Of a stretch of 43,851 nucleotides of DNA, positions 14,509-37,493 are shown one piece after another. Source of the DNA: Bacillota bacterium (GTDB lineage: Bacteria > Bacillota > Clostridia > Peptostreptococcales > Anaerovoracaceae); the NCBI GenBank assembly GCA_029239605.1, contig JARBUO010000039.1, positions 1 through 43,851 of the forward strand, written 5' to 3'. Made by a program: the position numbers and the translations under genes. Below the pieces are notes generated by a model. It did no database searches. It had not been told where the DNA came from and saw only the letters and a list, made by a program, of their open reading frames with translations. Positions within the stretch are counted from its first letter, which is position 1, and the number at the start of each line of letters is the position of its first letter.

Positions 14509-15399
14509 CTAAGAGTATATGCCGGGATGAAGTGTTATATTAATTCCATTTGCAATTATATCGGAAAAATCCTTGATCACCTGGTCGATATCCGTTGCGG
14601 TTACAATCATTTGATATCCATTGTCATCAAGGTATTGCTCCGCACCGTCTGGATCGCTAAGGAAGCCGCTGAGGTTGTCCAAAATCAAGGTTTTCGTATC
14701 GATGACAGTAGGAACTCCGATGGCAATCACCTTAATACCAAGAGTTGACTCATTCAGCTGTTTCCTCATATTTCCGGTCCCTGCTCCCGGTGAAATTCCC
14801 GTATCGCTGATCTGGATCGTGGTGCTGATTCTATCCACATTTCTTGCCGCCAGAGAATCAATCGCAATGATTACTTCAGGCTTGGCAATCTTTGCTGCAC
14901 TTTGAATCAAATCAGCAGTCTCCATTCCGGTGGAACCCATCACTCCGGGGATAAAGCCGCTTACGCATGAAATCTCATTGTCGCTGTCGGTATCATACAT
15001 TAAAAAGTAATGCCTTGTGACCTTAACCTTGGCAACCGTATACGGACCAAGAGAATCCGGAGTTACCTTATCGTTGCCAAGTCCAATAATGAGCACCTTG
15101 AGCTTGCTGTGGAATTTGATCAATTTTTTTAATTCAATCGACAGGGCCATAGCCGCTTTTTCCTTAATTTCCTCCCGGCCGTCCACTGCACTGTCGATCT
15201 CCAGTGTAATGTAGTTGCCGATGGGCTTACTCAAGATCTTGCTGCCGTGTTCATCGGTTATTTTAATCCGCGTGATATCCACCGCATCCTCATAATGATC
15301 GGTATCAACCTCCACGCCTTTTATTTCGATCTTCTCCTCCTGATTTTCGGAATCGTAGATTTCCTTATTTTCAATGGCCAAATCCGTTCTGAATTTCAT
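14509..15399 (-). CDS. gpr: Germination protease GPR
   Basis: GPR degrades small acid-soluble spore proteins at germination and is made as a zymogen in the forespore. The 296-residue protein starts FRTDLAIENKEIYD, the expected pro-region and cleavage context, and contains VLIIGLGNDKVTPDSLGP, VSGFIPGVMGSTGMETADLIQ, AIDSLAARNVDRI and TIQISDTGISPGAGTGN, all strongly conserved in GPR. Length is close to the usual 320-370, slightly short. It is divergent from rpsT, as in Bacillus. No forespore promoter was confidently seen upstream. Confidence 0.96.
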   Translation of the reverse strand: MKFRTDLAIENKEIYDSENQEEKIEIKGVEVDTDHYEDAVDITRIKITDEHGSKILSKPIGNYITLEIDSAVDGREEIKEKAAMALSIELKKLIKFHSKLKVLIIGLGNDKVTPDSLGPYTVAKVKVTRHYFLMYDTDSDNEISCVSGFIPGVMGSTGMETADLIQSAAKIAKPEVIIAIDSLAARNVDRISTTIQISDTGISPGAGTGNMRKQLNESTLGIKVIAIGVPTVIDTKTLILDNLSGFLSDPDGAEQYLDDNGYQMIVTATDIDQVIKDFSDIIANGINITLHPGIYS

Positions 15400-15460
15400 C
15401 GTGCTTTTTCTCTCTTTCCATCGGTCTACATTGCGGTAATGAACTTTTTATATTTTTGCC

Positions 15461-15489
15461 TTGCATTTTCCATTCTATTCATGTATACT
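15461..15489 (+). promoter_or_regulatory. Predicted sigma-A promoter of rpsT
   Basis: TTGCAT (15461-15466) and TATACT (15484-15489) are separated by 17 bp, 37 bp before the rpsT start codon. Confidence 0.75.
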
Positions 15490-15525
15490 CAAACTTGCGA
15501 TATTTTGCGAAAGTGGGGTGAAATA

Positions 15526-15795
15526 ATGGCGAATATCAAATCAGCAAAGAAAAGAATCAGCGTCATCGCAAAGAAGACAGCGATCAACAGAAGAGTTAAG
15601 TCTCATCTGAAGGCAATCGTGAAGAATTTTGACGGAGCAATCGCTACCGGAGATTTTGACACAGCAAAAGCTAAGCTGGCTTTAGCAGAAAAGAAACTGA
15701 TGCAGGCAGCTGCAAAAGGAACCATTCATAAGAATGCTGCTTCCAGAAAAGTTTCCAGAATGACGACCAGATTCAACAAAGCAAAAGCAGAATAA
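15526..15795 (+). CDS. rpsT: 30S ribosomal protein S20
   Basis: S20 is a 16S rRNA-binding protein of the small subunit. The frame is open further upstream, but the real start is the ATG at 15526 (MANIKSAKKRISV), behind GGGGTG. It gives 89 residues, the usual length. The Lys/Arg-rich helical protein contains NRRVKSHLKAIVK and KGTIHKNAASRKVSRMTTRFNK. It has its own promoter and a strong terminator, and is monocistronic and divergent from gpr. Confidence 0.97.
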   Translation: MANIKSAKKRISVIAKKTAINRRVKSHLKAIVKNFDGAIATGDFDTAKAKLALAEKKLMQAAAKGTIHKNAASRKVSRMTTRFNKAKAE

Positions 15796-15848
15796 TCTCA
15801 CCCGTCCCCACAGTGCATAAGTTAAATGCACAAAATATGGAAACAATT

Positions 15849-15898
15849 AATCATGCCAGAGCTGGCGGTGTCTCCCAGTTCATGGCATGATTTATTTT
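15849..15898 (+). terminator. Intrinsic terminator of rpsT
   Basis: AATCATGCCA (15849-15858) pairs with TGGCATGATT (15883-15892). The stem continues inward through GAGCTGG/CCAGTTC, and TTATTTT follows. Confidence 0.85.
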
Positions 15899-15925
15899 GC
15901 CCGTAAACAAGGAATGACATAGGCG

Positions 15926-16202
15926 AGACAAACGGATAAAGAAAGAAATACGATCCAAAATTGCAGGAACAATCCCACCAACCGTGGCTGAAAGCAGCTG
16001 TCGGAAGGTTTTTTCAGCACTCTCCGCTTAATTGAGCAGCTTGTTCAGCTACTGTCAAACACGGTTTACGCCGTGATTTGTTTGACAGCCTGAACATAGC
16101 GAAATGAAGCGCTTCGAGTGCCAAAAACCTGACCTGCTGATGAATCCGCGGTTGGTGGGTTTATTTTACTTGTGGGTCTCTGTAAGCTTTATCCGTTTAT
16201 CT
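15926..16202. repeat. 277-bp imperfect palindrome, possible structured RNA or MITE-like element
   Basis: The noncoding gap between rpsT and the convergent amidohydrolase (15796-16215) is filled, after the rpsT terminator, by a sequence whose halves pair along most of their length. The ends are 15926-15941 and 16187-16202 (15 of 16 complementary, ending AAACGGATAAAG/CTTTATCCGTTT). The middle arms are 15974-15987 and 16146-16159 (CCCACCAACCG/CGGTTGGTGGG). Further in, 15995-16021 pairs imperfectly with 16116-16139, GTTCAG (16043-16048) pairs with CTGAAC (16090-16095), and CTGTCAAA (16052-16059) pairs with TTTGACAG (16081-16088). CACGG/CCGTG forms the apex. No open reading frame, recognised RNA family or clear target-site duplication was found. 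Confidence 0.8.
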
Positions 16203-16215
16203 ATGAATTATGGTT

Positions 16216-17391
16216 CTATTCAAGGAGCTTTAAAACCGACATCACCAGCAATTGAATTCCAATTCCGATGCAGCTTTCATCTACTTCAAAACCGCTGGAG
16301 TGTATCCCCTCATTTTCCCTTCCTTTATAGCCGCTCCCAAGAAAGAAAAATGCTCCCGGCACCTTTTCCAGATAGTAAGAAAAGTCCTCCACGCCCATGG
16401 TCGGTTCCTTCAGTTCTACAACCTTTTCGACTGCGGTCTCGCAAATGACTGCATTTTTCACGGTATCCACAACGATGTTATCATTGGTTAATACCGGATA
16501 TCCTTTTTTGAATTTTACTTCCGCTCTTGCGCCGTAAGCCTTTGCTGTAGATTGCGCCATTTCTTTCAATCTGGCTTTTAGAAATTCCCTGCTGAAACTG
16601 TCAAGAGCCCGAATGGTGCCCTCCAAAACCACCGTGTCAGCAATCAGGTTGACGGCTGTGCCGCCGTGGATGATTCCGAAGGTAATAACTGCAGGATTCA
16701 GCGGGCTGATATTTCTTGCTACAATACTCTGGGCCCCGCATATAATCTGCGATGCGGCAGCAATGGCATCGACGCCCATTTCAGGATATGCGCCATGGCT
16801 GTGCTTTCCTTTTACGGTAATCTGAAACGTATCTGATGAAGCATGAACCTTTCCGTATTTTATGCCTATGGTTCCGGCCGGTAAATCAGGCTTTACATGC
16901 AAACCGAGGATGAAATCAGTTTTGGGACTTAAGCAGCCTCTTCGGATCATGCGCCGTGCACCTCCGGTTGTTTCTTCCGCTGGTTGAAATATAAATTTAA
17001 CATTTCCGTTCAATTCATCCTTAATTTCATTCAACACCCTTGCAGTTCCAAGAACTACAGCCATATGGACATCATGTCCGCAAGCATGCATGAGCCCCTT
17101 TCTTCTGGATGCAAACGGAAGGAGAACCGTCTCCTGAATCGGCAGAGCATCCATATCGGCACGAAGTGCCACAGTTTTCTTTTCAATGCTTTTATGTATA
17201 GAACCAACGACTCCGGTGGAAAGCACTTCCTGATAATCAATCTTCATTGTGCTCAGCTCCCGCTTAATACGCTCTGCTGTCCGACACTCTTCATTTCCAA
17301 GTTCAGGCCATTGATGCAAGTCCTGCCGGATGCTTACTGCCCATTTCTCCGCTTCTTTTACCAATTCATCCAATTTCACATGACTGACCAA
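16216..17391 (-). CDS. M20 family amidohydrolase (N-acyl-amino-acid / hippurate hydrolase type)
   Basis: This 391-residue metallohydrolase probably deacylates N-acyl amino acids. The M20D marks are LRADMDALPIQE, HACGHDVHMAVVLG (metal ligands), FIFQPAEETTGGARRMI (catalytic Glu region), HSHGAYPEMGVDAI (dimerisation domain) and MGVEDFSYYLEKVPGAFFFLG (C-terminal metal His region). It lacks a signal peptide, so it is cytosolic. The start is TTG at 17391, chosen because GGGAGGG lies 9-10 nt upstream. It is divergent from the LD-carboxypeptidase gene, and its 3' end stops 13 bp from the palindromic element. Confidence 0.93.
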   Translation of the reverse strand: MVSHVKLDELVKEAEKWAVSIRQDLHQWPELGNEECRTAERIKRELSTMKIDYQEVLSTGVVGSIHKSIEKKTVALRADMDALPIQETVLLPFASRRKGLMHACGHDVHMAVVLGTARVLNEIKDELNGNVKFIFQPAEETTGGARRMIRRGCLSPKTDFILGLHVKPDLPAGTIGIKYGKVHASSDTFQITVKGKHSHGAYPEMGVDAIAAASQIICGAQSIVARNISPLNPAVITFGIIHGGTAVNLIADTVVLEGTIRALDSFSREFLKARLKEMAQSTAKAYGARAEVKFKKGYPVLTNDNIVVDTVKNAVICETAVEKVVELKEPTMGVEDFSYYLEKVPGAFFFLGSGYKGRENEGIHSSGFEVDESCIGIGIQLLVMSVLKLLE

Positions 17392-37184: not shown

Positions 37185-37209
37185 GAAAAACAATAAGTTA
37201 ACAAGCCAA

Positions 37210-37493
37210 ACGCTATGACGAAGGAAAGTATGCGGCACTATCTTGTCAGGGAGGATCTGTCACCGACTGAAAGCAGATCTGAAGTGAAATCCGTTGAAGT
37301 TCCCTTCTGAGCGTATCTGTTGAACACGCTGCACTGCAGCAGTAGGCGGATACGGTTTCCACCGTTAAAAGGATAGGATATCGATCAGTATCTGAAAATG
37401 AGTGCGCGTATTTTATTATACGCGAATCAGGGTGGTAACACGGAGAGCAAATTGATGCCCTTCGTCCCTATTATAGGGGCGAAGGGTTTTTTT
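37210..37493 (+). ncRNA. T-box riboswitch leader, specifier read as UUC (Phe)
   Basis: Stem I starts at ACGCT (37210-37214) and closes with AGCGT (37310-37314), with GACGAAGG and an AGTA loop-E strand on the 5' side. On the 3' side GAAG-TTC-CCTTCTGAGC aligns position by position with the specifier region of the studied glyQS leader, placing the codon at 37300-37302 (UUC). GUU, one base earlier, is the alternative. Stem III is CGCGTAT/ATACGCG (37405-37424 region). The T-box motif AGGGTGGTAACACGG (37429-37443) offers UGGU for the tRNA NCCA end, which fits discriminator A. The terminator is CCCTTCG..CGAAGGG plus seven T (37457-37493). Confidence 0.93.

Follow-up and report, generated by a model that had tools for sequence, protein, structure and literature searches.

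A palindrome between rpsT and an M20 peptidase gene belongs to a dispersed family of rod-like hairpins

Palindromic repeats in bacteria are mostly defined by their ends and are expected to decay once they have inserted. Integron attC sites, at which gene cassettes recombine, are folded single strands in which the extrahelical bases are conserved and the arms vary. The element described here would resemble attC in its folded strand, its conserved unpaired bases and its variable arms; attC sites themselves serve cassettes.

Bacterial MITEs are described as small, non-coding, intergenic and multi-copy, with a stable stem–loop (PMC10969869, PMC2229807). The present family shares those traits, and one of its subfamilies also has inverted ends and 7-bp duplications. 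Unlike MITEs as so described, however, it has no family-wide ends, its covarying inner rod favours one strand and is conserved across genera, and our searches, of IS66 loci and Y1 transposases, found no partner insertion sequence (IS). The pneumococcal BOX, RUP and SPRITE repeats are dispersed and extensively structured, with an excess between convergent genes and low current mobility (PMC3049150). Our family is likewise dispersed and structured, with a convergent excess (13/62 versus 71/607) and low current mobility, but where BOX is built from boxA, boxB and boxC modules it consists, comparing by description, of one rod of ~160–300 nt with GA/GA loops and a bias to lie antisense to the gene whose stop codon is next to it.

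REPs are given as 20–40 bp long (PMC3733652, PMC3116915). Like REPs and REPINs the element is palindromic, non-autonomous, multi-copy and extragenic; unlike REP/REPIN with RAYT, it is larger, has 7-bp duplications in one subfamily and is not tracked by Y1 transposases. ERIC and Correia/NEMIS are palindromic MITEs in transcribed intergenic sites that can affect mRNA, with fixed inverted ends and TA termini and, in the case of ERIC, an orientation that matters (PMC2229807). Our element is also palindromic and in transcribed intergenic places, and it shows an orientation bias, but the hosts differ and the subfamily tested has other ends. By description, the family resembles BOX, RUP, ERIC and Correia in copy number and location, whilst being defined by its unusually well conserved inner fold and not by its ends. 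A few word searches of the open-access literature, covering titles and the starts of abstracts, found no publication on such an element.

The palindrome at the rpsT–M20 junction

The window (the whole 43,851-nt stretch of DNA analysed) contains a 277-base palindrome at 15926–16202. A preliminary description had reported nearly end-to-end pairing, and direct reading of the sequence confirmed that the palindrome is real, down to the 15 of 16 pairs at the tips, the 13 of 14 in the middle arms and the apex arms CTGTCAAA and TTTGACAG (16052–16059 and 16081–16088). The context it gave, convergent rpsT and M20 genes with the rpsT terminator complete, was borne out by Pfam and by reading the sequence, and the stop codon of the M20 gene lies ~13 bp from the element. 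The features are as follows.

15526–15795, + strand: rpsT (ribosomal protein S20), the upstream neighbour (Pfam PF01649 S20p, E = 1.9e-24)
about 15850–15898, + strand: intrinsic terminator of rpsT, intact despite the insertion, from sequence reading; present in syntenic loci too
15926–16202, + strand: whole rod-like palindromic element, + being the strand of the family consensus fold; an insertion relative to the syntenic spacers of relatives
15926–15941, + strand: outer tip arm, 5', forming 15 of 16 pairs with 16187–16202; not common to other copies
15974–15987, + strand: middle arm, 5', forming 13 of 14 pairs with 16146–16159
15987–16143, + strand: family core recognised by covariance models R1–R3 (E = 2.5e-25 with R3)
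16000–16005, + strand: 5' side of internal-loop motif 1, GTCGGA (a bulge of two bases, a single covarying pair, then GA), from alignment A6
16034–16037, + strand: internal-loop motif 2, 5' side, GAGC, from alignment A6
16052–16088, + strand: apical hairpin, from the fold, with a large share of the invariant columns among the genus copies
16099–16102, + strand: internal-loop motif 2, 3' side, GCGA, from alignment A6
16131–16133, + strand: 3' side of internal-loop motif 1 (GA followed by C, which pairs with the 5' side), from alignment A6
16146–16159, + strand: middle arm, 3', from sequence reading
16187–16202, + strand: outer tip arm, 3', from sequence reading
16216–17391, − strand: M20 family peptidase gene (Pfam PF01546 and PF07687, E = 1.2e-45)

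The fold of 15926–16202 is far past chance on either strand. The + strand has an MFE of −112.3 kcal/mol (shuffle mean −70.3, s.d. 5.05, z −8.3) and the − strand one of −112.9 kcal/mol (z −9.7), with none of 200 shuffles as low in either case. Over the core of this copy the strands are nearly equal, at −84.7 and −84.2 kcal/mol.

The palindrome had also been said to match no known RNA family and to be far longer than a terminator, and both statements hold. An Rfam search of the window gave no match over the element, and Rfam 15 (4227 models) applied to seven related loci with E up to 1 returned only a mir-994 match, far under the cut-off. No tRNA or tmRNA was found in 15000–17000. The rod measures 277 nt and does not as a whole have the form of a hairpin followed by a T tract; three small terminator-like matches lie inside it (shuffle mean 0.7). 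The sole Rfam match in the window is a T-box leader at 37206–37472 (+ strand, 108.6 bits, E = 3.1e-23).

A dispersed family and its fold

BLAST located five places in the host genome, the window included, and 22 more in four of the eight other genomes of the genus, showing that the palindrome is multi-copy and not a lone sequence. Apart from that of the window itself, the matches cover only the inner part (~15984–16149), and what the copies have in common is the inner 15987–16143, without the tips. The outer arms vary between copies yet pair within many of them. Judged by eye, further copies are partial, breaking off close to the apex in some cases and inside an arm in others. One genome (G033, locus L115) has tandem rods at 1293–1449 and 1501–1658, ~208 bases apart, and in another (G007, locus L157) the rod is directly preceded by the apparent 3' end of an additional copy.

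To follow the family further we used covariance models: R1 was made from 13 copies of the genus, and R2 and R3 were each trained on the matches of their predecessor, so that the training rows of all three match by construction. R1 found copies in three further genera among 148 sampled genomes of the bacterial family. With R2, 15 of 349 genomes of that family were positive, including nine of nine genomes of the genus and representing seven of 92 genera. R3 gave 99 matches in 15 carrier genomes, with eight copies in the host, 30 in G098, eight each in G002, G008 and G160, and one in several others. The option of a single-copy RNA gene is excluded. In a sample of the order, 10 of 393 genomes matched, all 10 from the same bacterial family, and in a class-wide sample R2 found one of 391, the host itself; both samples were run under strict filters that limited scoring to seven candidates in each genome, and weak copies could have escaped. 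Plasmid and phage collections gave no match by blastn with one G004 copy, and viral contigs none to two exact patterns. The palindrome is therefore a member of a dispersed family of rod-like hairpins that occurs in one bacterial family and is absent from Rfam. By the germination protease encoded nearby, the closest records are Bacillota/Eubacteriales MAGs and, at 57%, Emergencia timonensis, which makes Anaerovoracaceae the probable bacterial family.

Alignment A6, fitted to the covariance model, comprises 74 copies (71 distinct rows). Standard pairs fill 92.2% of its 3503 pair cells, against 63.7% after shuffling, and its covariation score of 0.716 compares with 0.209 in shuffles, none of 500 shuffles being as high; controls in which the structure was slid along the alignment reached at most 0.129. 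Two-sided change is seen at 47 of the 51 pairs. A MAFFT alignment of the 13 genus copies gives the same picture (93.7% standard pairs, 25 of 51 pairs with two-sided change, none of 500 shuffles as high). The copies are kin, and these pair counts, like the mismatch counts below, are not counts of independent events. Compensatory change had been proposed as the mark of a real structure, and it is strongly present in both alignments; the alternative of a neutral palindrome is refuted for the family. Judged from aligned sequences, it is the fold, rather than the letters, that is conserved.

Across genera, two internal loops keep GA dinucleotides that face each other. At motif 1, A6 columns 18–19 have G in 67 and A in 71 of the 74 copies, and columns 258–259 have G in 61 and A in 66; beside it, column 17 belongs to a covarying pair (G-C 27, C-G 17 and U-A 12 in the 71 distinct rows). 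At motif 2 the corresponding figures are G 56/74 and A 70/74 (columns 65–66) and G 71/74 and A 64/74 (columns 204–205). The natural reading of such GA/GA loops, from established chemistry, is as predicted tandem G-A pairs.

The consensus strand folds to a lower energy than its complement in 61 of 67 copies, by a mean of 8 kcal/mol (67 of the 74 rows were used; two second matches that were weak and five loci, most of them partial, were left out). Folds computed without G-U pairs contain 69 G-T against 34 A-C mismatches; a smaller, earlier count gave 23 against 10 (p = 0.035). A cruciform would give no difference between strands, which argues that what is kept is a single strand, either RNA or ssDNA. 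Statistically, then, the strand that corresponds to + in the window is the better-folding one in most copies, with its pairing kept step by step.

Insertion, ends and genomic sites

In three related genomes (G001, G002 and G004) the element is absent from the rpsT–M20 spacer, and little sequence separates the terminator from the M20 stop codon; the G004 spacer is the same sequence as that of the named contig L022. In a fourth, G007, the aligned flanks are 15 bases apart, which we read as empty. The comparison was bounded in three others, where the contig ends at the site (G003), the match ends within rpsT (G006) or matching is confined to the rod (G008). Since four related genomes have an empty spacer, the window palindrome is an insertion. 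No convincing target duplication was seen by eye at the window copy, and among the 274 loci fetched its 16-base tip is confined to the four that hold the window copy itself. It is probably a single, older insertion into the spacer that separates the rpsT terminator from the M20 gene. In G005 (locus L171) the spacer has an unrelated repeat instead of the rod, consisting of two copies of a ~30-base unit with a small palindrome of its own.

Clearer ends are found in G003 and G004, where elements of 40 to 237 bp have common inverted ends. A 12-base end occurs 23 times in G004 against once for its reversed control and four times in G003 against none; in the host it is no commoner than the control (2 and 2). 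Nine elements, all from G003 and G004, have both ends within one mismatch and could be used to look for target duplications: 7-bp direct repeats are exact at four of the nine and agree at six or more of seven positions at seven of the nine, whilst none of 72 mismatched flank pairs reached six. The full rod is present in only two of these nine, the others having one arm, the ends only or another hairpin.

G098 has larger elements, seven of which were measured at 563–814 bp, that carry the rod within quite different inverted ends; six of the seven hold two rods in opposite orientation. No convincing target duplication was seen by eye in these composites. The rod thus occurs within ends of both the G003/G004 and the G098 type, and moves with ends of different kinds.

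Several other arrangements were seen in passing. In two G004 elements with the same ends (L062:249–349 and L103:1501–1576) the arms pair perfectly over 45 and 36 bp, which looks like fold-back copying of one arm from a longer element, and two more (L105:1307–1512 in G004 and L088:1501–1644 in G003) have the same ends around other internal hairpins, as if palindromes had been captured. At L079 (G007) a large hairpin of different sequence begins at the 12-base end, from position 1501, with a second end-like sequence adjoining. At L078 (G003) an unrelated long palindrome (~300–410) lies beside a truncated copy and near an end resembling the 12-base one.

Two candidate mobilisers were rejected. 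IS66 was set aside for the three loci found, which are without the ends of the subfamily, and Y1/RAYT transposases for their distribution (six of 15 carriers versus 14 of 25 genomes taken as non-carriers); no Y1 transposase was found in G098, with its 30 copies, or in the single-contig genome G008, with eight. G162 gave 21 Y1 transposase matches of near-identical score, mostly in tandem pairs ~750 bp apart.

The genomic sites show a clear orientation bias. The gene on the 3' side of the core is antisense to the consensus strand in 54 of the 74 copies, sense in 18 and not seen in two (p = 2.6e-5), counting genes of at least ~100 aa; a 70-aa limit gives 55 to 18. In 41 of the 54 antisense cases its stop codon lies less than 100 bp from the core. 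With the G098 composites (19 rows) left out, 41 of 55 are antisense and 13 sense, and copies flanked by genes of one direction are antisense in 34 cases and sense in 13 (p = 0.003). The 5'-side gene has no clear bias (37 to 27, with 10 not seen). Convergent pairs are somewhat enriched, at 13 of 62 against 71 of 607 gene pairs counted in 40 20-kb stretches (p = 0.04); the deficit of divergent pairs is not significant (2/62 versus 60/607, p = 0.11). Replication strand was rejected as the source of the bias: of the 28 copies tallied, 17 have the consensus strand opposed to the leading strand and 11 have the two in the same direction, with no clear link, in a skew-based count by hand that covers part of the copies in four genomes and omits one near-zero-skew stretch.

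The same junctions are occupied in different species and genera, among them purH|purD, mnmE|mnmG, smc|ftsY, secA|prfB and aconitase|icd; we take these and the other junction genes to be what their names say from their proteins, not from a database. At mnmE|mnmG (G007 and G001), aconitase|icd (G002 and a genome from another genus) and an ethanolamine-permease site (G000 and G008) the copies are each other's nearest relatives. The copies tested at the smc|ftsY, yaaT, purE and parB sites are closer to copies elsewhere, and at purH|purD and secA|prfB relatedness is mixed. Both inheritance and repeated insertion seem to occur.

Four orthologous pairs were compared base pair by base pair. At purH|purD, G001 and G005 differ by 14 compensatory and nine broken pairs with one reference, and 11 and 15 with the other. 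The remaining three have more broken than compensatory pairs (7, 9 and 5 compensatory versus 24, 17 and 17 broken; with the reference reversed, 1, 3 and 3 versus 26, 27 and 27). With the added flanks included, these comparisons are compatible both with constraint at individual sites and with its absence. Pairing in the core is equal whatever the transcriptional context, at 0.922 in antisense (21 copies), 0.935 in sense (8) and 0.926 in convergent (11) positions, for 40 hand-picked rows of the 74, which points to a fold that is of use to the element and not to the neighbouring message.

What the palindrome may be

The preliminary description had offered a structured RNA, a MITE-like element and an IS relic as possible readings, and had named scattered copies with flanking duplications as the sign of a MITE. 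Scattered copies exist, eight in the host alone, and flanking duplications are present in the subfamily, though none was found at the window copy; the MITE-like and structured readings both find support, whilst the IS relic finds none.

In the reading that we consider probable, at about 0.62, the palindrome is one of the dispersed copies of a MITE-like, non-autonomous mobile element, and selection acts on the single-strand fold. The MITE-like part is supported by the many copies, the empty spacer in relatives, the conserved structure and the sister subfamily with inverted ends and 7-bp duplications. The consensus strand, as ssDNA or RNA, would act in folded form and would be recognised by whatever moves or maintains the element, presumably by way of the rod together with its pair of GA/GA loops. 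The ends used in transposition would lie in the outer arms, and these would often be exchanged or rebuilt, which is how copies with different tips could have the same inner rod. Most copies lie directly after a stop codon and antisense to that gene, probably because insertions at such places are least harmful. Set against this reading are the searches for a mobiliser, in which neither the three IS66 loci nor the Y1 distribution yielded a transposase with these ends, the duplications, which are seen in two genomes only (G003 and G004), and the window copy itself, which has no convincing duplication, tips not seen in other fetched copies and strands of equal stability. Copies that are closest relatives at the same junction in two genera fit a function at the site as well as they fit mobility; three of the four orthologous pairs, added flanks included, have more broken than compensatory pairs.

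The deep covariation and the conserved unpaired GA motifs across genera would also be expected of a family of structured non-coding RNAs, expressed from the consensus strand, in most cases opposite in sense to the adjacent gene, and carried about by various mobile ends. We hold this to be possible but rather unlikely. It accords with the preference for one strand and for G-T over A-C mismatches, with vertical persistence at the mnmE|mnmG, aconitase|icd and ethanolamine-permease sites, with the compensatory changes between the purH|purD copies of G001 and G005, and with the G098 elements, in which the rod, mostly doubled, sits within other inverted ends. Promoters at the window copy, however, are no more frequent than chance (one found, 1.0 expected), copy number ranges from 1 to 30 per genome, and a folded ssDNA would give the same preference for G-T and G-A.

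The stop codons that lie within 100 bp of the core at 41 of 54 antisense right-hand genes, the excess of antisense over sense copies between co-directional genes (34 versus 13) and the reuse of purH|purD, smc|ftsY and secA|prfB would suit a hairpin acting at the level of mRNA, placed after stop codons in operons and tuning termination, processing or decay in the manner of REP, ERIC and Correia. We think this improbable, for the mRNA strand is usually the worse-folding one, pairing is kept equally in all transcriptional contexts tested and related genomes do without the rod at the window site.

Long palindromes can become perfect by template switching. Such quasipalindrome correction within hairpins might maintain the pairing, and so give structure without selection, and the two G004 elements with perfect 45- and 36-bp arms resemble fold-back copying of this kind. 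The changes between copies speak against it. In 32 pairs of copies less than 6% diverged there are 36 one-sided and no two-sided changes, and at 6–15% divergence four two-sided changes compare with 3.4 expected if the sides changed independently. At 15–25% there are 221 (194 between standard pairs) against 78 expected, and at 25–32% there are 939 (727 between standard pairs) against 371, in counts where pairs share sequences and the alignment is model-fitted. As the excess of paired change appears only above 15% divergence, step-wise compensation, and hence selection on pairing, fits better than conversion, and template switching is disfavoured as the source of the covariation. Together with internal loops that persist uncorrected across genera and the preference for one strand, this makes it very unlikely as an explanation of the fold.

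A relic of an insertion sequence would account for an insertion absent from related genomes but is almost certainly wrong, since no Pfam family matches either of the ORFs, of 42 and 114 aa, that lie over the window copy, ORFs (of 70–110 aa) reach into the core in only 16 of 74 rows, on differing strands and at differing offsets, and the three IS66 loci tested have no ends of the subfamily.

Returning to the MITE-like element with a selected fold, a bolder form of it can be imagined, which we regard as speculative and doubtful. The rod with its two GA/GA loops might itself be the transposition substrate, as ssDNA or RNA, of an enzyme not yet described, which would place it just behind stop codons with one orientation preferred; the arms would be freely rebuilt, and the rod would persist across genera whilst its tips differ. 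If true, this would be a mobile nucleic acid defined by a folded single strand and not by its ends or its sequence.

A dispersed palindrome here keeps a strand-specific fold and two GA/GA motifs across genera and recurs at operon junctions. This opens a question that can be tested, namely whether the hairpins are selected as DNA, for mobility, or as RNA, for function, and a family outside Rfam gains a covariance model that can be used for annotation.
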